64,000 bases of DNA from Nitrospira sp. CR1.1 (GTDB taxonomy: Bacteria; Nitrospirota; Nitrospiria; Nitrospirales; Nitrospiraceae): the NCBI GenBank assembly GCA_014055465.1, contig WIAF01000007.1, forward strand, positions 62,001 to 126,000, given 5' to 3'. Position numbers and translations under genes: made by a program. The notes beneath the pieces were generated by a model. That model did no database searches, was not told where the DNA came from, and saw only the letters and a list, made by a program, of their open reading frames with translations. Of this stretch, positions 15,805-26,402 are shown in pieces; within the stretch, counting starts at the first letter, position 1; every line of letters begins with the position of its first letter.

Positions 15805-16204
15805 GGGGTCCGATTGTAGTGAGGGGAAAAGTTGAAGTCAAACGCAAGGGGGAGGGGGAAGAGGGGGGACAGGGAGCGTCGAAGACACGGCCGGCACACC
15901 GCCTCGCCGGCGTGCGCAAGCATGACGCTCATTATTCTTCGCGGCGCGCACCTCGCGCAACGCGCAGCCTCAAAAGGCCCTCGCCTGGGTAAATGGCGCG
16001 TCTTGGCGCGCCAGTGGGTTGGGCGGGTAAGAAGGTGGCGCGCAGCTGGAGGCTTCCCCGATCACCCTCTCCTCGTTCTCTCCATTGACAGTTTCCTTCC
16101 TCAAGTCTAGCCTATCGTTGATTTTGCGTAGAGAGCGATTTTCGGCGCGTCACGCTTGATGGCCGGAACGGCGACTCGATCCGGTTAGTGAACAGGTCGT
16201 TCGA
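15805..16204. other. Divergent intergenic region with a G-quadruplex motif
   Basis: A 400-base gap between dnaE (minus) and the large membrane protein (plus). At 15848-15874 the plus strand carries four G runs (G5-A-G5, then G6 and G3 with short spacers), a strong G-quadruplex motif 44-70 bases upstream of the dnaE start. The rest contains GC-rich inverted patches (for example GGCGCGTCTTGGCGCGCC around 15995). No open frame here is convincing. Confidence 0.45.
16085..16113 (+). promoter_or_regulatory. Candidate sigma70 promoter for the 1036-aa membrane protein
   Basis: A perfect -35 TTGACA (16085-16090), a 17-base spacer and a weak -10 TAGCCT (16108-16113). It lies about 90 bases before the start of the large membrane-protein gene. 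The weak -10 keeps confidence moderate. Confidence 0.4.
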
Positions 16205-19200
16205 ATGGCGGAACCAAAAGACGAGAAACCGAAACTGCCGCTGGCCGGTCTGGTGGCCTTGCTGCTGGCCGCGGTGAGCAGCCTGATCATCTATCAGAGC
16301 CCTATCAAGACTTCCCGGCCGATCGATAAGGAGGCGGAGAAATCTGCCTCGGTCGTTCGTGATCGTGTCCAATCCCGGCTCTGGCAGGACCCGTTCGAAG
16401 CGGTGGCGAGCCATATCCAGAAGGAGAAAGCCGATAAGGGCGACGGGGGGCACGGGCACCATGCTTCGCCCGGTCTGGTGGATGGGGCTCAAGTTACCAA
16501 GGGGCTGTTTCGCTTTCACTTGATGCCGGTGTGTGTCGACGGAAGTCCCTATGCCAGCGGCGTGGAATCGAGACTGCGCGATCGCTATGCGCTGGTGTCG
16601 GCGCTGGGCGCGGCCGGGTATCTGCCGGAGTCCGGAGAATCTATCCGATACTTTGAATGGAAATCGAGCGCAGGCGTATCCACGGTTGTCCCGGCCGAAT
16701 GGTTTGTCCCCGGGCCCAGGCTCTCTCAATTGGATCAGGCATCTAAACCGAATGAGCGGGGGCCGCATGACGCGCCGGCCATTCTGGTCCTGTGGCTGAA
16801 AGAGCAGGATCTTGGTTCCCAGCCGCTGCACGCCCTGACGACCTTGGTTCGCTATCTCAACGAGCAGTTGAACGCGATCCCCTCGGCCTATCGCGTGTTG
16901 GGTCCCCGCACGTCCGGTTCGCTGAGTGCCATGCTGGGGGAACTTAAGCCACGGTTTGTGGCAGGCGCCTCGGTTGCACCCTCTGCTGCGGCGCCCGAGC
17001 CGGTCGTTTGGCCTGTGTTGAGCGGCGCTGAATTCTATTCCTCCTGGGCCACGGCGGCTGATCCGGTGCTCCTAGGCGAGAGTGCGATTCAGCAGACGGA
17101 CAGGCCGGTTGAAGAACGGTTTGCGGCCTCCGGTCTGACGTTGATCAGAACGATCGGCACCGATGACGCGCTGGCGAACGAATTGGTGCTTGAGTTGCAG
17201 CGTCGAAAGATAGACCTGACAACGCCGTCGAAGACTCCCCACATTGCGCTGATCTCCGAATGGGACACGCTTTATGGACGATCGTTGCCACGTACGTTCG
17301 TGGCAGTCGCCAGGAGATTGGCGGAAGCAGCAGAGAAGAAAGCCGAAGCAGCGGAGAAACCTGTTCTGACGTTGGCGCAGCACCTCGATACGCTCCATGA
17401 TGAACAATACCCGGAGTGGGTGCATCGCTATTCGTATCTCGCCGGCCTGGACGGTGAATTGCCGCCGAAGGACAATGGAAAGGATGCGGGCGGCGCCAAG
17501 GGCAAACCGGGTGACAAGGGGGGAGGCGCCGAGGCAGTGGTGTCGGAGACACCGGTCGGCCGGAGCCAGCTTGACTATCTGCGGCGCCTCGTTGAGCAGT
17601 TGAAGCGGGAGGAAATCACGTCCGATGGCGAGTTCAAGGCCATCGGGGTCTTGGGGAGCGACGTGTATGACAAGCTTATGCTCTTGCAGGCGTTGCGCAA
17701 AGATTTTCCCCATGCCCTGTTTTTCACCACTGATCTGGATTCCAGGCTCACTCATCCCTCCCAGTTGCCGTGGACGCGCAATCTGGTCGTCGCTTCCCAT
17801 TTCGGCCTCGAACTCGATCCCCGGCTGCAGACGCCCATTCCGCCGTTCCGCGACAGTTATCAAACTGCGCTTTTTTTTTCGGTGCTGCGGGCGGTGGGCG
17901 CTCTTGAAGCCGTGGCCGAAACGCCCGCGTTGAAGCTGTCCACCGGCGCGATGTTTTCCGGGGAGGTCATGCCGCGTCTGTATGAAGTCGGCCGGCATGG
18001 CGCCGTGGATCTCAGTCCTGATCCGATCCCTGCGGCTGGCGCGCCGCCCAGTATTCATTTGCCTCGTTCCGATGTGGATCCGTCGACCGGCGGGTTGCGG
18101 CTGCCGTCGGCCCGCACGATCGGCCTCCTGCTGTCTGCCGCCGCGCTGATGTTCCTCTGCGCGATCCTGATTAATAGCGAGATCTGGGCGTTGTGCCGGG
18201 GGCGTGCGCTCGCTGGTCTCCTGGCCATGCCGGCCCTGTTGGGCGTGATGGTGGTCGCATTGCTGGCCGGCGCCCGACTGGATGGGACAGGCGGCGAACC
18301 GTTTACCTTCACCGATGGGATCAGTGTCTGGCCCACGGCGAGTCTGCGGCTCCTCGCGTTCGTGCTGTGCGTCATCTTCTTTGCCCATTCGTGGTGGCGG
18401 CTGTGGGAAAGCGATACGGCCCTGATCCGGATATTTCGTTTCCTCCGCCCCAAGACTGCGGTTCCCCGCCCGTCCCATTCCATAATCAGCATCCATCATT
18501 GGCGTCCGCACCCGTCCGGTCAGGCGGAGGTCCGGCAACTGTGGCGCGAGTATCGATGGCTCGGTGAGTGGCAGGAGCGGGCCCTACGCGTGGCGCCGCA
18601 GGTGGTGGTGTATGGGCTCTTTGGCATCGTGGTGATGCTGCAGCTTGGTTTTCCCGTCATGCCCTGTCGCGGAGACGCCTGTTTTACGCTCAACTACATC
18701 ATTCTCGGAGTGAGTGTGGTTGCCATGACGCTGCTCATGTTTTATGTCGTTGACGCGACACGCCTGTGCCGTCGCCTGATTACGATCATGATCGGGACCA
18801 CGATCGAATGGCCGCAACGGCTGCTCGCGAGGGAAGCCGCCAAGTATGATGTGGATCAGGCATACGTACACGAATGGCTGGGCATTCAGTTCATTGCGAA
18901 ACGGACGGCCGTCATCAGCGCCATGATCTACTATCCGTTTGTGATTGTGTTCCTGATGGCGGTGGCGCGGCATAGTTACTTCGACCGCTGGGACTTTCCG
19001 GCCGGTTTGCTCGTGATCTTTACCCTCAACGCGCTCTATGCCTTCGGCAACGGAGTGCTACTGCGCCGGTCGGCCGAAGAGGCGAAACGGGAAGCGGTTC
19101 GGCAATTGAAACGCCGGCTCAAGAGCCTGTCCGGTGCGCCGGTATCTCAGCAGGGTCAACCACAGCAAATCGAGCGGATGATGGAGCTGATCGAACAGAC

Positions 19201-19315
19201 GCGGGACGGCGCCTTTCTGCCGTTTACCCAGCATCCGTTGTTCGGTGCGATCGCGTTACCGACGGGCGGCACCGGCCTGGTGTTCCTGCTGGAGTATCTG
19301 GCCACGCTCTTCTGA
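16205..19315 (+). CDS. Large polytopic membrane protein, function unknown
   Basis: A 1036-residue protein I cannot assign to a named family. One N-terminal membrane segment (LAGLVALLLAAVSSLIIYQ, about 13-31) is followed by some 600 residues outside the membrane, with an acidic/Gly-rich linker near 420-440. The part around 470-570 (IGVLGSDVYDKLMLLQALR, ALFFTTDLDSRLTHP, NLVVASHFGLELD) has the alternating beta/alpha style of a periplasmic-binding-protein-like fold and is the best conserved-looking block. About seven more membrane segments lie between 640 and 955, then a soluble helical stretch and a final hydrophobic tail. This suggests an envelope sensor or a channel with a large outer domain. 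It starts a run of plus-strand genes (TPR protein 43 bases downstream, NnrS, subtilase, hydrolase). Confidence 0.85.
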   Translation: MAEPKDEKPKLPLAGLVALLLAAVSSLIIYQSPIKTSRPIDKEAEKSASVVRDRVQSRLWQDPFEAVASHIQKEKADKGDGGHGHHASPGLVDGAQVTKGLFRFHLMPVCVDGSPYASGVESRLRDRYALVSALGAAGYLPESGESIRYFEWKSSAGVSTVVPAEWFVPGPRLSQLDQASKPNERGPHDAPAILVLWLKEQDLGSQPLHALTTLVRYLNEQLNAIPSAYRVLGPRTSGSLSAMLGELKPRFVAGASVAPSAAAPEPVVWPVLSGAEFYSSWATAADPVLLGESAIQQTDRPVEERFAASGLTLIRTIGTDDALANELVLELQRRKIDLTTPSKTPHIALISEWDTLYGRSLPRTFVAVARRLAEAAEKKAEAAEKPVLTLAQHLDTLHDEQYPEWVHRYSYLAGLDGELPPKDNGKDAGGAKGKPGDKGGGAEAVVSETPVGRSQLDYLRRLVEQLKREEITSDGEFKAIGVLGSDVYDKLMLLQALRKDFPHALFFTTDLDSRLTHPSQLPWTRNLVVASHFGLELDPRLQTPIPPFRDSYQTALFFSVLRAVGALEAVAETPALKLSTGAMFSGEVMPRLYEVGRHGAVDLSPDPIPAAGAPPSIHLPRSDVDPSTGGLRLPSARTIGLLLSAAALMFLCAILINSEIWALCRGRALAGLLAMPALLGVMVVALLAGARLDGTGGEPFTFTDGISVWPTASLRLLAFVLCVIFFAHSWWRLWESDTALIRIFRFLRPKTAVPRPSHSIISIHHWRPHPSGQAEVRQLWREYRWLGEWQERALRVAPQVVVYGLFGIVVMLQLGFPVMPCRGDACFTLNYIILGVSVVAMTLLMFYVVDATRLCRRLITIMIGTTIEWPQRLLAREAAKYDVDQAYVHEWLGIQFIAKRTAVISAMIYYPFVIVFLMAVARHSYFDRWDFPAGLLVIFTLNALYAFGNGVLLRRSAEEAKREAVRQLKRRLKSLSGAPVSQQGQPQQIERMMELIEQTRDGAFLPFTQHPLFGAIALPTGGTGLVFLLEYLATLF

Positions 19316-19358
19316 GGACGGCGATGGCCGACAGGCCTGGTGGAAGGAGTGCCGTTGT

Positions 19359-20177
19359 ATGAACAAGCGATCTCAGCGTGCCGGTACGCAGCAGAAACGG
19401 GCTGCCGCGCGGCCGCCTGTGAGTCGTATGCTGAAAGAACGCGGCAGGCTGGAACAGGCTCAAGGATTGATTTATCGGGCGTGGGAGGCAACGACCGACC
19501 GGCAAGCGGCGTCACTGGCCCGGCAGGCGCTGGCGATCTGTCCCGATTGTGCGGATGCCTACACAGTGCTGGCGGAATCTGCGGCCGGGTCGGCAGAGGA
19601 AGCCTGTCGGTTGTATCAGCAAGGCGTCGATGCCGGGCGACGCGCTCTGGGCGAGGCGGTGTTTGATCAAGAGGCGGGCCACTTCTGGGGGCTGATTGAG
19701 ACCAGGCCGTACATGCGCGCGCGTCAGGGATTGGCCGAGTGCCTTTGGGCGCTCGGCCGGAGAGAAGAATCTCTCGCGCATTGCGAAGCCTTATTGGCGC
19801 TGAATCCCGACGATAACCAGGGCATTCGTCACGGGTTGCTGAGTCGCTACCTTGCAGTCGGGGATGAGGCGGGAGCAGCAGGTCTCTTTCATCGGTATCC
19901 GCAGGATGCATCCGCCGCGTTTCTCTGGAGCCTGGTTCTGCTCGACCTTCGCCGGGGAGATCAGGCCGCGGCAAAGCGGGCTTTGCTGGCGGCGATGCGA
20001 GGCAATCCGCACGTGGCCGACTTGTTCACCGGCAAACGGACACCACCGACTCGGTTGCCTGAACACTACTCTCCTGGAGATCGGCATGAGGCGGCGTGCT
20101 ATTTTGCGGGGTTTGCCGAAGCCTGGCTCGCGTCATCGGATGCGATGGAGTGGCTGATGGATCAATTGACGGATTGA
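19359..20177 (+). CDS. TPR protein of the ST7-like type
   Basis: A 272-residue soluble helical-repeat protein. The ATG at 19359 has GAAGGAG ten bases upstream. After a basic tail, repeats appear as SLARQALAICPDCADAYTVLAE, HFWGLIETRPYMRARQGLAE, CLWALGRREESLAHCEALLA and LNPDDNQGIRHGLLSRYLA. The block WGLIETRPYMRARQGLA...LNPDDNQGIRHGLL is the pattern of bacterial proteins related to the ST7 TPR domain, which usually end in a segment like this one (HYSPGDRHEAACYFAGFAEAW). Such proteins are probably scaffolds. It is 43 bases after the membrane protein and likely co-transcribed. Confidence 0.82.
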   Translation: MNKRSQRAGTQQKRAAARPPVSRMLKERGRLEQAQGLIYRAWEATTDRQAASLARQALAICPDCADAYTVLAESAAGSAEEACRLYQQGVDAGRRALGEAVFDQEAGHFWGLIETRPYMRARQGLAECLWALGRREESLAHCEALLALNPDDNQGIRHGLLSRYLAVGDEAGAAGLFHRYPQDASAAFLWSLVLLDLRRGDQAAAKRALLAAMRGNPHVADLFTGKRTPPTRLPEHYSPGDRHEAACYFAGFAEAWLASSDAMEWLMDQLTD

Positions 20178-20267
20178 GTCACAGGATGGGAGTCGAGCCG
20201 TTGCTCTGCGGCAAGCGTCCTGTCGCGCAAGCACGTGTCGTGATGGTAAAGGAACGGGTGAGGGCAT

Positions 20268-21458
20268 GTGGTGAAGAGTGATGTAGTCGAAGGTCGCGGA
20301 ACCTCGCCGGGGGCGGCAGTGTTTTCGTATGGATTCCGCCCGTTTTTTCTGGGGGCCGCAGTATTTGCGGGCCTGGCTGTTCCTGTCTGGGTTGTCATGT
20401 TGGCGGTCGGGGGTGGTTCAACCAATCTGGCTGCGCCTCGCGAATGGCATGTGCACGAAATGTTGTTCGGATTTCTGCCTGCGGTGATCACCGGTTTTGT
20501 GCTGACGGCCCTGCCCAACTGGACGGACCGTCCGGCCATCAAAGGACGCCTTCTGATGGGGCTGTTCGCGGTGTGGTTCGCCGGCCGGATCGTGCTGGCG
20601 CGGCCCTGGTTTCCGCCGGGCCTGGCGGCCGTTATCGATTCGGCCTATCTTTTGATGTTGGCGGGATTGCTGTGGCGCGAGATTGCGGGGGGAAAGAGCT
20701 GGAATCATGCGCCGATCGGCGTCTTGCTCAGTCTTTATGCGGTCGCGAACATGCTGTTTCATCTCTTCGCTCTCAACGGCATGGCAACGGATCTTCCCGA
20801 ACGACTGGCGCTGGGACTGGACCTGACGCTGCTGGCGTTCATCGGCGGCCGTGTGACGCCGAATTTTACACGCGAGTTTCTTGTTCAGGCGAGAAGGCCG
20901 GAGCAACCGGCGCCGTTTTCTCCTCTCGATATGGCGGCGATAGGATTGGTCGCGTTGGCCTCGACGATCTGGGTGATGCTCCCGGAAGGGGCCATAGCCG
21001 GGTCGGTCCTCATCCTTGCCGGAGTGGTCAATCTGGTTCGGCTGTCGCGATGGTACGGCTGGCTCGCGTGGCGAGAGCCGCTGGTGTTTGTGCTGCACTG
21101 GGGATATGGGTGGCTCGCGCTGGCGCTTTTCCTGCTCGGTTGCGCCGCGCTTGGCGTCGGGTTGCCGAAGGAAGATGCCGTGCATGCGTTAACCACAGGA
21201 GCGGTGGGCGTGATGACGCTCGGTATCATGACCCGCGCGAGCCTCGGCCATACCGGCCGTTCACGGCACGCCGACACTCCAACGGTCGCCATGTATGTGT
21301 TAGTCACCTGCGGAGCAATTCTGCGGGTATTCGGACCGGCCACCGGCCTGCCGACCACTCTCGTACTGGGTATTGCCGCCTCTTGTTGGAGCGGCGCGTA
21401 TCTTTTGTTCGCCTTGATCTATGGCCCGTACCTTCTACGTCCGAGTGTCGATGAGTGA
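20268..21458 (+). CDS. nnrS: NnrS family membrane protein
   Basis: A 396-residue integral membrane protein of the NnrS family with about 12 predicted membrane segments. The diagnostic motif is REWHVHEMLFGFLPAVITGF followed by LTALPNWT; the histidines are thought to bind haem and copper. NnrS proteins are linked to nitric oxide stress and denitrification regulation. The start is a GTG at 20268 with GAGGG before it. In a nitrite oxidiser an NO-protective role would be sensible, but that is inference. It lies 90 bases after the TPR gene, and whether it belongs functionally to the flanking cluster is unclear. Confidence 0.9.
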   Translation: MVKSDVVEGRGTSPGAAVFSYGFRPFFLGAAVFAGLAVPVWVVMLAVGGGSTNLAAPREWHVHEMLFGFLPAVITGFVLTALPNWTDRPAIKGRLLMGLFAVWFAGRIVLARPWFPPGLAAVIDSAYLLMLAGLLWREIAGGKSWNHAPIGVLLSLYAVANMLFHLFALNGMATDLPERLALGLDLTLLAFIGGRVTPNFTREFLVQARRPEQPAPFSPLDMAAIGLVALASTIWVMLPEGAIAGSVLILAGVVNLVRLSRWYGWLAWREPLVFVLHWGYGWLALALFLLGCAALGVGLPKEDAVHALTTGAVGVMTLGIMTRASLGHTGRSRHADTPTVAMYVLVTCGAILRVFGPATGLPTTLVLGIAASCWSGAYLLFALIYGPYLLRPSVDE

Positions 21459-21719
21459 ACAACACACATGCCTGCCGGTTGACCGCCTGTCTCACCAGGA
21501 CGCGTATCGATTTCGATACGATGACGCATGCGTGGAGATACGGCGCCCCTCCTCGAAGTTTGCTCAGAACAATGACACGTATTTCTATCGATCGAATAAC
21601 GTGGACATGACTTCTCGCTCATCTTCCGGTACAACCGTTGCTGCCTCACCGCTTGATGGGGCGCCTCAAGGATCCCGTGCCCGGCGCGCGGCAGCGTTTT
21701 TCTGTTCGTGAGGGAGTCT

Positions 21720-23471
21720 ATGGCCAAAAAGAAATCGAGCGCATCAAGGGCAGGGCAGAAAAAAACACGCCGGCCGCCTGAGCGGATGGCTTCTGACACG
21801 GTATCCGAGGCGGCTCCGCATCCGGCTCCCGTACCGGACCGATCCTCAGAATCAGCCGCACCGACCGGGCCCATTGTCCCTCCCAATCCTCCCGGGGATG
21901 CTCTCGGGACTGAGCACGAAGAGCGGTTGGCAAAGAATCTCATCAAGACCGTCATTGCCCTGCCGCTCCTCGACAAACTGTACTATGAAACGAAGGCGCG
22001 AGTGGCGGACACCTCCCGCCGTCCGGGCATCTATGAGGTGATCATTGATTTGAATCTGGAATACCCCAAGGGCCGGGAGGCGGCGCGAGACTGGGTGTTC
22101 AAGACGATCGAGGAACTGATCGCGCAAGCAGGACGGAAGGAGGCCGGCCAACGGCTCGACCGCAAGAAGAGCGAGTTCAACGAGCAATACGTGTTTGCCG
22201 CTCTTGAGGCGCGCGTGATTCGCGAATTGGTCGAGCTGGATGCGAAGGCCAAACCCGACGTGCCCGGCAAGGACGGCAAGCCACGAACGACTCGGGCCAT
22301 CTACCAGATCTGGGAAGATTTCAAGCTGAAGGCGTTCATCACCAGCTCTGTCACCACGGTGAAAGCCGATGCGGCGAAAGTGGCCTTCTCCGCGTTGGGC
22401 GACAAGATCGTCTGGGCCGTCGTCGATTCCGGAATTAAAGGGGACCATCCGCATTTCGGCGCACACCAGAATCTTGCCGGCCAGGTCGAGGAGTGGCACT
22501 ACGATTTTACGGACGGTGTTGATCCGACGAAGACCGCGTTGGTGGATGGCATGGGGCATGGTACCCATGTGGCCGGCATCATCGCCGGAGAGATTCCTGC
22601 CGATACGAAGCTGCGCCCCGGCGAATCACATCCTGACATTCTTGCCTATTCCCGATCGCTCAAGCCTGACGGGGATCAGGCGGAGCGGGAAGTCGTCTAT
22701 GAGCAGATCAAGGCCCCATCCATTGCCGGGATGGCTTCGCGGTGCAAGCTGGTGAGCCTGAAGGTCTTAAACGAGGCCGGCGAAGGCAGCGTGAGCAACA
22801 TCATTGCCGCGATCGGGCACATTCAGCGCATCAACAGTTTCGGGCGGCACATTCGCATTCATGGGGTGAACTTGAGTGTCGGCTACCCATTCGAGCCCGA
22901 ATGGTTTGCCTGTGGCCAAAGCCAACTCTGCGTGGAGGTAAACCGTCTTGTGCGCTCCGGCGTCATCGTGGTGGTGGCGGCCGGGAACTCCGGATATGGC
23001 GTCCTCTCCACTGATTTTACGGGACTGCGCTCGGCCGGAATCGGTCTGACGATCAACGATCCGGGGAATGCCGACCTCGCGATCACCGTCGGGTCGACCC
23101 ATCGCAACATGCCGCATATCTACGGGGTCTCGTATTTTTCATCGAAGGGGCCTACGGGCGACGGACGCCTGAAGCCGGATCTGGTTGCGCCGGGGGAGAA
23201 GATCCTCTCCTGTGCGGCGGGGCGGATGGAGCAGGACATTCAGGAAAAAATCGAGAAGGATGTGACCTACCTGGAACATTCCGGGACGAGCATGGCCGCG
23301 CCGCATGTGTCGGGTGTCATCGCCGCGTTCTTGTCCGTCCGTCGAGAATTCATTGGGCAGCCGGAACGGATCAAAGAAGTCTTTGTTTCGACCGCGACGG
23401 ATCTCCGTCGGGAACGGTACTTTCAGGGAGCCGGGCTCGTGGATCTCATGCGCGCGATTCAATCCATCTAG
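21720..23471 (+). CDS. Subtilisin-like S8 peptidase without signal peptide
   Basis: A 583-residue serine protease. The ATG at 21720 has GAGGGAG upstream. The first ~45 residues are basic and low complexity (MAKKKSSASRAGQKKTRRPP) with no signal peptide. A charged helical N-terminal domain (about 65-215) precedes the catalytic domain: Asp236 in AVVDSGI, His283 in GHGTHVAGI, the oxyanion AAGNSG, and Ser524 in SGTSMAAPHVSG, so the triad is complete. About 80 residues are inserted between the Asp and Ser blocks relative to minimal subtilases. Lack of an export signal implies a cytoplasmic enzyme or an unusual export route. Its neighbours are a large membrane protein and a GxSxG hydrolase. Confidence 0.9.
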   Translation: MAKKKSSASRAGQKKTRRPPERMASDTVSEAAPHPAPVPDRSSESAAPTGPIVPPNPPGDALGTEHEERLAKNLIKTVIALPLLDKLYYETKARVADTSRRPGIYEVIIDLNLEYPKGREAARDWVFKTIEELIAQAGRKEAGQRLDRKKSEFNEQYVFAALEARVIRELVELDAKAKPDVPGKDGKPRTTRAIYQIWEDFKLKAFITSSVTTVKADAAKVAFSALGDKIVWAVVDSGIKGDHPHFGAHQNLAGQVEEWHYDFTDGVDPTKTALVDGMGHGTHVAGIIAGEIPADTKLRPGESHPDILAYSRSLKPDGDQAEREVVYEQIKAPSIAGMASRCKLVSLKVLNEAGEGSVSNIIAAIGHIQRINSFGRHIRIHGVNLSVGYPFEPEWFACGQSQLCVEVNRLVRSGVIVVVAAGNSGYGVLSTDFTGLRSAGIGLTINDPGNADLAITVGSTHRNMPHIYGVSYFSSKGPTGDGRLKPDLVAPGEKILSCAAGRMEQDIQEKIEKDVTYLEHSGTSMAAPHVSGVIAAFLSVRREFIGQPERIKEVFVSTATDLRRERYFQGAGLVDLMRAIQSI

Positions 23472-23473
23472 CC

Positions 23474-23595
23474 GGATGGTGAAGAAGTCCGCCAGCGGTG
23501 CTCACCGACTCGCGCCCGTTCGCAGACGTGACGCTTATTCTTCCTCGCGTTGCGGACCTCGCTGCGGCCGCGCTGGACAGTCTGTTTGACCATCC
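23474..23595 (+). repeat. Palindromic intergenic element R1
   Basis: About 122 nt, beginning three bases after the subtilase stop codon. Ends pair as GGATGGT/ACCATCC. Internally it has the family layout: tgaagaagtccgccagc, then a variable middle, then ctgcggccgcgctgg. It belongs to the same family as elements at 29202, 43720, 43940 and 61337. It may act as a 3' structure of the subtilase mRNA or be a remnant of a mobile short repeat. Confidence 0.65.
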
Positions 23596-23691
23596 TGCGA
23601 CTGCGTTCGACGTCGTTTCCAGCTCCTCTCCATCAGTGCGTGTGGAGGTGGCGGAAGATCTTTTCAACAGCCGTTATCGAGGGAGGTCGTC

Positions 23692-25008
23692 ATGGAACAG
23701 TTATCAGGGTTTGCTTATTTTCCCGTGGAGTTTACCAAGGACGCCGCCGTCCATGATCAGGCCGATGTCGCAGCCTTGCAGGAGTATGTCCAACGCGAGG
23801 GCACAACCGATCTCATCGTCATCTCGCATGGCTGGAACAATAATATGGAGGAGGCCAAGGCGCTCTACGCCGAGTTTTTGCGTAACTTCCGCTCGTTACT
23901 CGACGCCGGTTCGCTCCCGACCCTCGCGAACCGGAAATGGGCGGTCCTCGGCGTGTTGTGGCCCTCGAAGAAGTTTGAGGAGAAGGAGCTGATTCCGAGC
24001 GGCGCCGCCGGGGCCGGTTCAGCGGTCGGCATGGCGGCCATGAAGGCGAAGCTGGACAGCCTCAAAGGCGTCTTTGATTCACCGCAGGCTGACCGAACGC
24101 TCGACGAGCTGCAACGACTCCTGCCGAAACTGGAGGATAGTACATCCGCCCAAAAGGAATTCGTGGACAAAGTCCGCTCGCTGGTTCACAAGCGCGCCCC
24201 GGATCAAGAAGACGGGTCGGAGGCCTTTTTCACGGTGCCGTCGGGCGAGCTGCTGGGCAAATTGCGCAAGCCCGTGTCGTTCACGGTAGCGCGGCCACCG
24301 GCGAATGCGGGTGGGGCGGCGGGAATCGGTTCCGGAGGCGCCGCTGGATTGGGGGAATTTTTCAGCGGGATCTGGTCCGGCGTGCGGAATGCGCTGAACT
24401 ATACCACCTACTATCAGATGAAGGAGCGGGCGGGATTGGTCGGAACGAACGGGGTGAATCCGATCCTCCGCGCCCTTCAAGTCGATCGGCCGAATATGAA
24501 GTTGCATCTGATCGGCCACAGTTTCGGAGGGCGCCTCGTGACCGCCGCCGTGGCCGGTTCCAGCGAGGCCACGCTCCTCCGCGTGAGGACGCTCTCCTTG
24601 TTGCAAGCGGCCTTCTCTCACTACGGATTCGCGGAGAAGTGGGACGGCGTGAACAACGGATTTTTTCATCGAGTGGTCAGCGCACGTGCGGTAGCAGGCC
24701 CGACGATTATCACCTGCACGGCAAACGACAAGGCCGTCGGTCTCGCCTATCCCATTGCGTCCCTGCTGGCTGGCCAGGTGGCCGCCGGGATCGGGGATAA
24801 GAATGACAAGTACGGCGGCATCGGCCGCAACGGGGCCCAGAAGACCCCTCGCACCGTGGATCTGACTCTGCTTGAGGCGACTGGCTCCTATCAGCTGACC
24901 AACGGCATGCTGCATAACCTTGCGACGGATCGACTCATCACCAGTCATGGAGACGTGGCCAACAAGTCAGTCGCCTATGCCGTGGCGTCGGCCATCGCGG
25001 TCACGTAA
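23692..25008 (+). CDS. Alpha/beta-hydrolase (esterase/lipase-like), cytoplasmic
   Basis: A 438-residue protein with a strong ribosome site (GGGAGG) and no signal peptide. Fold marks: VISHGWNNN in the oxyanion position (about residues 43-51) and the nucleophile elbow LIGHSFGGRL with Ser277. A long insertion (about 90-250) that includes a coiled helix and a Gly/Ala-rich loop separates them. A His for the triad may be in the ITSHGD segment near the C-terminus. It resembles DUF900-like or PGAP1-like esterases that act on lipids or acylated substrates. It follows the subtilase, separated by element R1. Substrate unknown. Confidence 0.82.
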   Translation: MEQLSGFAYFPVEFTKDAAVHDQADVAALQEYVQREGTTDLIVISHGWNNNMEEAKALYAEFLRNFRSLLDAGSLPTLANRKWAVLGVLWPSKKFEEKELIPSGAAGAGSAVGMAAMKAKLDSLKGVFDSPQADRTLDELQRLLPKLEDSTSAQKEFVDKVRSLVHKRAPDQEDGSEAFFTVPSGELLGKLRKPVSFTVARPPANAGGAAGIGSGGAAGLGEFFSGIWSGVRNALNYTTYYQMKERAGLVGTNGVNPILRALQVDRPNMKLHLIGHSFGGRLVTAAVAGSSEATLLRVRTLSLLQAAFSHYGFAEKWDGVNNGFFHRVVSARAVAGPTIITCTANDKAVGLAYPIASLLAGQVAAGIGDKNDKYGGIGRNGAQKTPRTVDLTLLEATGSYQLTNGMLHNLATDRLITSHGDVANKSVAYAVASAIAVT

Positions 25009-25151: not shown

Positions 25152-26402
25152 CTACAGTTCTTCGCCGTATTTCAGAAAATGTTGTTCCTTGGCGCCGGCG
25201 ATCCAATTGTCGTGGCGGATGCGATCCGGGAACGTGTCGAGTTCCGAAGCCATATGTTCGACGTCTTGATCCTTCCATTCGGCGATCTGCCGGAAGGTAA
25301 ACATGCCCATGCGATTCAAGACGCGCTCCATCACCGGCCCGATCCCGTGAATCTGTTTGAGGTCGTCTTTCTGCGCGGCGCGTGATTTTCCGGCGGTGCG
25401 CGCGACGGTAGCGGAACTGTGCGACACAGGTTCGGCGGGGCTGGTCCCTTTGGCTTGCGCATGGTGCCGCTGGGCGACCCGGTATTCGACGAGCCGCTTG
25501 CGCAGCGCGGCGATTTCTTCCTCCCGTTCACTGACCTCCATCACCCGGCGTTCTTCAGCCTCGCGGAGGGCGATCTCCTTTTTTTCTACCTCACCCCGGA
25601 ACACCTCCAGTTCTTCCATCGTGGCGCGGAGGCGTTGAATATCCTGATCCCGCTGGTGCACCGTTTCGGTGAAGCGCGCGAGGTCCTCCTGATTCTGTGT
25701 CCGCAGGCGAGCGAGTTCCGATTCTTTCTCATCGAGCTGTGTCTGGCGCCGGGCGAGTTCCTGGTCCTTCCCTTGGATGACGGCGGAAGCCCGGGCGCGA
25801 TCCTGTTCGAGTTCCCGCTCCAACTGGCGGGTGTGCTCCCGGAATGGCTCCAGCTCTTCGGCGCGCGCCCGTAGGCGGGCGATCTCGGCGTCTTTCGGCG
25901 CCAGTTGCTCGACCCAGGTCTTGAGTGTGGCGATCTCCTGGTCCCGGCTGATCAACACGTCTTCCGCATTTTCCATCTGCGTCTGCATTTCGGTGAACCC
26001 CGCCGACTGCGCCACAAGCCTGGCTTCAGCTTCCTCGAGTTCCCGTCTGAGGGTATCCCGTTCACGTTCGGCCGCATGGAGGTGTACCCCTTTCTCCCGG
26101 ACTTCGGTCTGCAGCGTGGAGAGTTGGTCGACCTTCGTCGCGAGATCGGCGGTCAGGTCTTTGAGCGCCGCTTCGGAGGCGATCATCTTCCCTTCCAACA
26201 TCTGGACGGCCGAGGTGCGCACTTTTAATTCATGGTTCAGCGTGTCCAATTCATGTTCGCGGCCGCGGAGCCTGGTGGCAATTTCGGACAACTGCTGACG
26301 TTTCTCCGACGTGGCGAAACTGCGCAGCAGCCACCCCATCATGAGACCGATGGTCGTTGCCACCAGTAAGCAGCCGATCATTTGCAGAATTAAGGCTCCC
26401 AT
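25152..26402 (-). CDS. Membrane-anchored coiled-coil protein with C-terminal H3TH domain
   Basis: A 416-residue protein with three parts. An N-terminal membrane segment (about 4-27, QMIGCLLVATTIGLMMGWLL) is followed by basic residues, so the rest should be cytoplasmic. Residues ~35-325 form a very long heptad coiled coil (many Glu/Arg/Leu/Gln). The last ~65 residues are a helix-hairpin-helix domain: DLKQIHGIGPVMERVLNRMG, TFRQIAEWKDQDVEHMA, FPDRI...DNWIAGAK, matching the COG3743 flap-endonuclease-like H3TH type. Its GIGP turn is a typical DNA-backbone contact. It starts four bases after the stop of the BON-OmpA gene (26407), so the two are one operon. Confidence 0.85.
   Translation of the reverse strand: MGALILQMIGCLLVATTIGLMMGWLLRSFATSEKRQQLSEIATRLRGREHELDTLNHELKVRTSAVQMLEGKMIASEAALKDLTADLATKVDQLSTLQTEVREKGVHLHAAERERDTLRRELEEAEARLVAQSAGFTEMQTQMENAEDVLISRDQEIATLKTWVEQLAPKDAEIARLRARAEELEPFREHTRQLERELEQDRARASAVIQGKDQELARRQTQLDEKESELARLRTQNQEDLARFTETVHQRDQDIQRLRATMEELEVFRGEVEKKEIALREAEERRVMEVSEREEEIAALRKRLVEYRVAQRHHAQAKGTSPAEPVSHSSATVARTAGKSRAAQKDDLKQIHGIGPVMERVLNRMGMFTFRQIAEWKDQDVEHMASELDTFPDRIRHDNWIAGAKEQHFLKYGEEL

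Follow-up and report, generated by a model that had tools for sequence, protein, structure and literature searches.

We analysed a 64,000-nucleotide stretch of DNA from Nitrospira sp. CR1.1 (contig WIAF01000007.1, positions 62,001 to 126,000 of the forward strand; hereafter, the window), in which a preliminary description had pointed to a run of five plus-strand genes at 16205-25008. All five genes are present. Our main result is that two of them, encoding an S8 (subtilisin-family) protease and an alpha/beta hydrolase, form a conserved, portable two-gene unit, a conclusion that is well supported, the adjacency of the two genes being far from chance. The remaining three, encoding a membrane protein, a tetratricopeptide repeat (TPR) protein and NnrS, are bystanders to the pair. 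The preliminary description had read the run as a sensor, a scaffold and two degradative enzymes; the idea of two cytoplasmic enzymes acting as a regulated, defence-type system survives, while the five-gene set does not. Below, labels of the G000 type denote genomes and those of the L type collected loci; the window's own genome, 4.44 Mb long, is G000. The genes of the pair are as follows.

21720..23471, plus strand: S8 (subtilisin-family) protease, 583 amino acids (aa), predicted to be intracellular (Pfam Peptidase_S8, E 5e-44)
23692..25008, plus strand: alpha/beta hydrolase, lipase-like fold by model, 438 aa (weak match to Pfam DUF900; AlphaFold2 model)

When genome contigs were scanned with an alignment of the hydrolase, at least 415 relatives were obtained, and the best 80 loci were used. 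Although these loci were gathered by the hydrolase alone, an S8 gene of the same subfamily was adjacent or fused to it in 71 of the 80; of the remaining nine, eight had no S8 gene (two of these being ended by a contig edge) and one had it 6 kb away. The S8 gene usually comes first, and the gap between the two genes is at most 60 nt in 60 of 67 measurable cases (median 22 nt). The order is reversed in a metagenome-assembled genome (MAG) of the Phycisphaerae, where a single 1028-aa open reading frame contains the hydrolase followed by the S8 protease. Distances between S8 proteins and between hydrolases are correlated across 59 loci (Mantel r 0.68, permutation maximum 0.23; uncorrected for species relatedness). 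Among the genomes of 80 relatives, the hydrolase and the S8 subfamily that accompanies it both occur in the same eight and no others, and in all eight they are adjacent; other S8 matches in those genomes were weak and corresponded to other subtilases.

The window hydrolase shares 86% identity with its counterpart in Nitrospira MAGs, and the pair as a whole spans about a dozen phyla. On the tree, group labels change 26 times for 12 groups (minimum 11; shuffled mean 36.8), so that the phyla are mixed, and copies of the pair are found on plasmids of Rhizobium, Sinorhizobium and Rhodococcus. The mixing of phyla and the plasmid copies together suggest transfer. One plasmid copy, in Rhodococcus rhodochrous pNit (L043 3924-5891), may have a broken S8 gene beside the hydrolase, a 114-aa S8-like fragment (57.9% identity) being all that was found just upstream of the latter.

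Both enzymes are likely cytoplasmic and, to judge by their sequences, catalytically intact. For the S8 protease, translation was taken to start at the ATG at 21720, because Met5 of the longer, GTG-initiated form is invariant in relatives; numbering is from this ATG. The triad named in the preliminary description (Asp236, His283 and Ser524) needs one correction: Asp236 and Ser524 stand, but His283 is the second histidine of the HGTH motif, and the catalytic residue is the first, His280. Asp236, His280, Ser524 and the oxyanion residue Asn423 are invariant in 71 sequences, and the protein combines the triad and oxyanion Asn of peptidase family S8 with a subtilisin fold. In line with the earlier claim of no signal peptide, its N-terminus does not resemble one (maximum 15-residue hydropathy -0.11). 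The catalytic codons are located at:

22425..22427, plus strand: catalytic Asp236 (invariant column)
22557..22559, plus strand: catalytic His280, first His of HGTH (invariant column)
23289..23291, plus strand: catalytic Ser524, GTSM motif (invariant column)

In the AlphaFold2 model of the protease (predicted local distance difference test, pLDDT, 79.5; predicted template modelling score, pTM, 0.81), residues 1-60 are disordered, residues ca. 62-205 form helices and a beta-alpha-beta prodomain, and the catalytic domain follows a low-confidence linker (residues 208-216), which is a candidate self-processing region. The top fold matches were unprocessed pro-forms, ProN-Tk-SP (3afg, E 2.7e-25) and pro-subtilisin E (3whi), and by its model the window S8 protease appears zymogen-like. 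From the structure-model alignments of both enzymes, rows from plasmid records were excluded.

The hydrolase model (pLDDT 87.8, pTM 0.90) contains a Ser277-Asp346-His419 triad, an oxyanion motif (His46-Gly47) and a cap insertion (residues ca. 92-226) with two disordered loops; nucleophile elbow, triad and fold are those of an alpha/beta hydrolase. The GxSxG nucleophile had been correctly placed at Ser277, which, like Asp346, is invariant in 81 sequences; His419 is at least 90% conserved in the same set. The absence of a signal peptide was borne out here as well (maximum 15-residue hydropathy 0.49). The relevant codons are:

24520..24522, plus strand: nucleophile Ser277, GHSFGG (invariant in 81 sequences)
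24727..24729, plus strand: Asp346 (invariant in 81 sequences)
24946..24948, plus strand: His419 (at least 90% conserved in 81 sequences)

The best VIA-align rows for the hydrolase model were lipases, a type VI secretion system lipase effector (Tle3), DDHD/NirD domains and phospholipase A1, with Z of 13-14 (up to 13.9). Lipases and phospholipases made up most of the fold rows, which included esterases and thioesterases as well; Foldseek by itself gave no match to the model at E <= 0.001. We therefore describe the hydrolase as lipase-like by modelled fold, with acyl-ester cleavage as its putative activity. The profile of the hydrolase also gave dodecin matches (E 5e-4), which were short, covering residues 217-258, and were taken as chance.

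The two cap loops are the most distinctive feature of the hydrolase model. At residues 102-110 (loop 1) and 207-223 (loop 2) the pLDDT falls below 50, and each loop carries at least one copy of a short motif that is a candidate site of cleavage:

23998..24009, plus strand: candidate cleavage motif SGAA, residues 103-106, loop 1 (low pLDDT; motif enrichment)
24310..24321, plus strand: candidate cleavage motif GGAA, residues 207-210, loop 2 (low pLDDT; motif enrichment)
24334..24345, plus strand: second candidate GGAA, residues 215-218, loop 2, followed by GLG (low pLDDT; motif enrichment)

The motif [GS]GAA occurs in loop 1 of 35 of 64 S8-paired hydrolases and in loop 2 of 43 of 64, while composition-preserving shuffles gave means of 2.0 (maximum 7) and 4.8 (maximum 11), respectively; the loops that bear it are otherwise variable among S8-paired relatives. 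The more relaxed pattern [GS]G[AV][AS] was found 126 times in 4,012 loop residues versus 8 times in 28,015 residues outside the loops. In the set used for the tree, a loop motif is present in 52 of 66 S8-paired rows versus 1 of 11 rows without S8 (one S8-paired row counted as motif-less, L075, is an artefact of loop bounding). AQGLG-like sequences replace the motif in a Rhizobium clade and in some mycobacteria.

From the topology of the model we infer that the cap loops would cover Ser277, gating the active site until the S8 protease cuts them at [G/S]GAA. On balance, we consider it somewhat more probable than not that the pair is a portable protease-effector module, in which a pro-lipase gated by loops is unlocked by the S8 protease. 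The hydrolase would be made as an inactive pro-lipase, its active site gated by the two cap loops; once stress or infection is signalled, the protease would shed its prodomain and cut the loops at [G/S]GAA sites, and the freed hydrolase would then cleave cellular acyl esters, probably those of membrane lipids. In some lineages, SIR2 or SIR2-caspase proteins would be likely sensors or second effectors added to the module, and fatty-acid dioxygenases, where encoded nearby, could oxygenate the fatty acids set free. The pair in the window's genome lacks these additions.

The roles of the two enzymes might also be reversed or equal, with the hydrolase controlling the S8 protease (by chaperoning it, inhibiting it or anchoring it to the membrane, for example) and general proteolysis by the latter being the effector activity. 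In pairwise identities to the window the S8 protease is more conserved than the hydrolase, it is usually encoded first, and it has, by the model, a prodomain of its own. Yet the hydrolase triad is kept across lineages, and elsewhere the hydrolase is paired with proteases of unrelated families, which is what one would expect if it were the substrate or effector of a protease; we regard a reversed or equal arrangement as decidedly unlikely. The evidence for the pairing with other proteases comes from five plasmid-borne cases (Nostoc, Sinorhizobium terangae, Bradyrhizobium, Planktothrix and Gemmobacter), in which family members that have no S8 gene adjoin C25 peptidases and/or CHAT proteins. In two of these, the cyanobacteria Nostoc and Planktothrix, nSTAND1 is also present. 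Judged by the genes encoded, the protease partner of the hydrolase family is swapped between S8 and C25/CHAT.

Other recurrent neighbours of the pair bear on what it might do. In Nitrospira G004, the hydrolase gene is overlapped at its 3' end by a gene for a SIR2-like protein with a caspase domain (L130 12647-14878). In G007 the pair is likewise adjoined by a match to this protein, which is 70% identical and crosses one stop, and a short, remnant-like match is present in G001. A relative of its SIR2 part is encoded upstream of the S8 gene in an Acidobacteriota bin. Two Novosphingobium loci (L102 9291-13406 and L096 1946-5974) encode related proteins of ca. 1350 aa directly 3' of the hydrolase gene, and that of L102 is a SIR2-TPR protein by Pfam. 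Separately, directly 5' of the S8 gene in G001 and G007 (L128 12510-14417 and L129 6525-8432) lies a gene whose 635-aa product has a metalloprotease motif of the HELGHTAFGLADE type and, in its C-terminal part, a repeated unit.

Animal-type haem peroxidases (PF03098) form a second group of neighbours. Of the 49 genomes searched, 9 encode them no more than 20 kb from the pair (10 genes in all, versus 0.31 expected from random placement; contigs and loci were matched by coordinates and record numbers, and L121 by record number alone). With related genomes collapsed, five lineages remained (P 4e-6). Such peroxidases are encoded close to the pair in Nitrosospira/Nitrosovibrio, Mycobacterium and relatives, two Actinomycetota bins, Phycicoccus and Sinorhizobium medicae; in Nostoc, an animal-type haem peroxidase adjoins the hydrolase relative that has no S8 gene. 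The Mycobacterium peroxidase matches plant alpha-dioxygenase over nearly its full length (E 3e-111), and that of Nitrosovibrio, which has a lipoxygenase gene alongside, matches prostaglandin H synthase to the same extent (E 2e-66). A cytochrome P450 gene adjoins the peroxidase gene in S. medicae. Cyclooxygenase-like, alpha-dioxygenase, lipoxygenase and catalase-like genes near the pair (L067 2010-5490, L101 3182-6359, L049 1626-3383 and L055 103-2697) possibly constitute an oxylipin gene neighbourhood, which is undescribed in the papers found. The catalase-like neighbour of Mycobacterium and Nitrosovibrio was tried as a known allene oxide synthase; there was a weak Pfam catalase match for the Mycobacterium protein and no match among PDB sequences.

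These peroxidase, lipoxygenase and P450 genes are what one would expect of a lipid-signalling module, in which the hydrolase would free fatty acids, dioxygenases would convert them to oxylipins, and the S8 protease would set the timing, phage defence being secondary or absent. Polyunsaturated fatty acids, however, are absent from many bacteria. In addition, 25 of the 49 pair-bearing genomes, as well as the window's genome, have no PF03098 match, and we consider this reading rather unlikely. The 25 genomes also rule out the haem peroxidase as an obligate third component. A more specific version likens the pair to inflammatory lipid signalling, of which it would be the bacterial equivalent: the protease would unlock a gated lipase and, where cyclooxygenase-like, alpha-dioxygenase or lipoxygenase genes adjoin the pair, the freed fatty acids would become oxylipin danger signals or toxins. 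This version is in our view unlikely. The SIR2, SIR2-caspase and dioxygenase neighbours, together with the CHAT and C25 proteins beside relatives that have no S8 gene, suggest immunity or lipid-damage signalling; the pair could act in defence against phages, in membrane damage triggered by stress or in signalling through oxylipins.

An unregulated housekeeping pair for peptide and ester degradation, serving nutrient scavenging or protein turnover, would agree with the hydrolytic nature of both enzymes and with loci set amid metabolic genes, such as thiM-thiE-thiD on Rhizobium plasmids. It fits poorly with the likely cytoplasmic location, the patchy presence, the mixing of phyla on the tree, plasmid carriage, the SIR2/caspase neighbours and the motif-bearing disordered loops, and we hold it to be very improbable.

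Several observations weigh against the protease-gated lipase that we favour. About one-fifth of S8-paired hydrolases lack the strict motif, which, instead of marking a cleavage site, may serve as a flexible hinge or a degron. The S8 state changes just three times on the tree, and a sign test of motif against S8 therefore cannot reach significance; the correlation between S8 and hydrolase distances, as said, may partly follow species relatedness, for which the Mantel test was not corrected. When PADLOC was run on 101 immediate neighbours of the pair as a test for defence islands, only scattered matches were returned. Viral contigs yielded 31 pattern matches and no confirmed relative, on which ground a viral origin of the pair was rejected. 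The search of the window's genome for PF03098 found no match, and therefore the pair apparently works there without a dioxygenase; the lipoxygenase search of the same genome was silent, as were its controls, and shows nothing either way.

Among the closest known systems are nucleases whose cleavable disordered loops keep them gated until a trypsin or caspase partner opens them (Tuck et al. 2025, PMC12799240); other classes of proteolytically activated enzymes are raised there as a possibility. Like these Hachiman, AVAST, Lamassu and Canu nuclease-protease pairs, the present unit combines a protease with a partner enzyme that has, by its model, disordered insertions, which may lie near its active site, the protease family swaps between lineages, and the gating loops of CanC contain conserved glycines (PMC12799240). 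Unlike them, the effector here would be a lipase-like alpha/beta hydrolase rather than a metallo-beta-lactamase nuclease, the protease belongs to S8 rather than to the trypsins or caspases, and no sensor gene is fixed in the unit.

A protease gene beside an alpha/beta-hydrolase gene is also a feature of MoxR-vWA/VMAP and GTPase-centric conflict systems. In the parts of the published account considered here, the caspase of VMAP systems is always accompanied by a neighbouring alpha/beta hydrolase, joint action of the two in immunity is proposed, and subtilisin is mentioned once, in the context of NucA (Kaur et al. 2020, PMC7159879). The VMAP caspase-hydrolase pairs resemble the cases in which members of the present hydrolase family have no S8 gene and lie beside caspase-fold CHAT/C25 proteins, with nSTAND1 in the two cyanobacteria. 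They differ from the present unit, in which the partner is a subtilisin and the two genes stand by themselves. Genes for MoxR-vWA or VMAP were not seen in the loci looked at, with no profile search aimed at them; the neighbours of the pair in the window are the membrane protein, the TPR protein, NnrS, a coiled-coil protein and an OmpA protein, with no MoxR, vWA or VMAP component.

The anti-phage system IetAS likewise has an S8 peptidase (IetS, with an ATPase), to which the window protease gave weak matches of 49 bits (PADLOC) and 31.9 bits (NCBIfam). Membership was rejected, the NCBIfam IteS equivalog cut-off being 900 bits. Unlike in IetAS, there is no adjacent IetA ATPase: the protease gene of the window has NnrS upstream and the hydrolase downstream, and its conserved partner elsewhere is the hydrolase. 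With Tk-subtilisin, ProN-Tk-SP and pro-subtilisin E, the window protease shares, according to the model, a prodomain and the S8 catalytic fold; it differs from intracellular and pro-form subtilisins in having no secretion signal, a conserved partner gene and several insertions in the catalytic domain.

Searches of Pfam, NCBIfam and PADLOC gave the S8 protease no more than a general name and pointed to no system for the pair, and no description of an S8-hydrolase pair was found in the literature searched (open-licence papers only). The gating of effectors by proteases has been recognised only recently as a theme of bacterial immunity, and has so far been shown for nucleases (PMC12799240). The pair is a concrete candidate with a wide distribution, in which a subtilisin would unlock a lipase as the gated effector, and the named candidate cut sites make the idea directly testable. 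The repeated cyclooxygenase-like and alpha-dioxygenase neighbours offer an entry point to the role of oxygenated fatty acids in bacteria.

The remaining genes of the run are the following.

16205..19315, plus strand: membrane protein, 1036 aa, a mere neighbour (40 of 80 relatives have a homologue, mostly without the pair)
19359..20177, plus strand: TPR protein, a mere neighbour (weak TPR/ST7 matches; likely ATG start at 19359)
20268..21458, plus strand: NnrS, a mere neighbour (found too in relatives without the pair, by synteny; Pfam E 6e-106)

The 1036-residue membrane protein has one N-terminal and ca. eight C-terminal hydrophobic segments by hydropathy; it had no match in Pfam, NCBIfam or PADLOC, and nothing among PDB sequences at E <= 1. 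NnrS is identified by Pfam (E 6e-106). Of the label ST7-TPR, we keep the TPR part; the ST7 identity was rejected, the Pfam hit being below threshold (E 7e-4; 18.6 bits versus a 24.3-bit cut-off).

As far as the stretches reach, the examined Nitrospira loci share a common neighbourhood between dnaE and purH, within which the pair behaves, by synteny, as a present-or-absent cassette; it is patchy, being found in 7 of 29 same-genus genomes. The membrane protein, NnrS, the S8 protease and the hydrolase are all neighbours in the window and in Nitrospira G006, G016 and G025 (of these four, the window alone gave a homology match for the TPR gene), as would be the case if all five genes made up one membrane-sensed stress or defence system. 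Synteny contradicts such a system. The pair occurs without the membrane protein in G001 and G007 and without a TPR match in G004, and in G009, G011 and G026 the membrane protein, TPR protein and NnrS occupy the same site without the pair (the G026 contig stops shortly past NnrS, and searches of the whole genome found no pair elsewhere). Within the 29 same-genus genomes, the pair occurs in 5 of 25 with the membrane protein and in 2 of 4 without it (Fisher p 0.24), an association that is not positive and, if anything, negative; none of the three genes is among the recurrent neighbours of the pair in other phyla. Rare co-occurrence, which the preliminary description had named as grounds for refutation, applies to the five-gene set and clearly does not apply to the S8 and hydrolase genes. 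We reject the five-gene system on the grounds of synteny and the lack of association, leaving it hardly any probability, and consider it unlikely that the membrane protein beside the pair acts as a trigger.

The membrane-protein family, for which there is no Pfam match, is widespread in the genus, and a paralogue with ca. 35% identity to the window protein is encoded at G000:C1:686421-689633. Past the hydrolase gene, at 25152-26402 on the minus strand, the window encodes a coiled-coil protein. Its C-terminal part matches models, in NCBIfam, of an NADH-quinone oxidoreductase subunit E and of a ribosomal protein L21 with tails of this kind; the best of these matches has E 1e-20 and falls short of the cut-off.

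In the window, the gap between the S8 and hydrolase genes is ca. 220 bp, while in most close relatives it is ca. 20 bp, with ca. 160-230 bp in a few. The window gap contains one further feature.

23500..23598, no strand assigned: interspersed genomic repeat in the S8-hydrolase gap (no functional part; 23 further matching places in the genome)

Six of the other copies are 78-81% identical to the repeat over ca. 98 bp. The repeat contributes to the greater width of the window gap compared with the ca. 20 bp seen in several relatives. A stretch near 15920 of the window resembles the same repeat.

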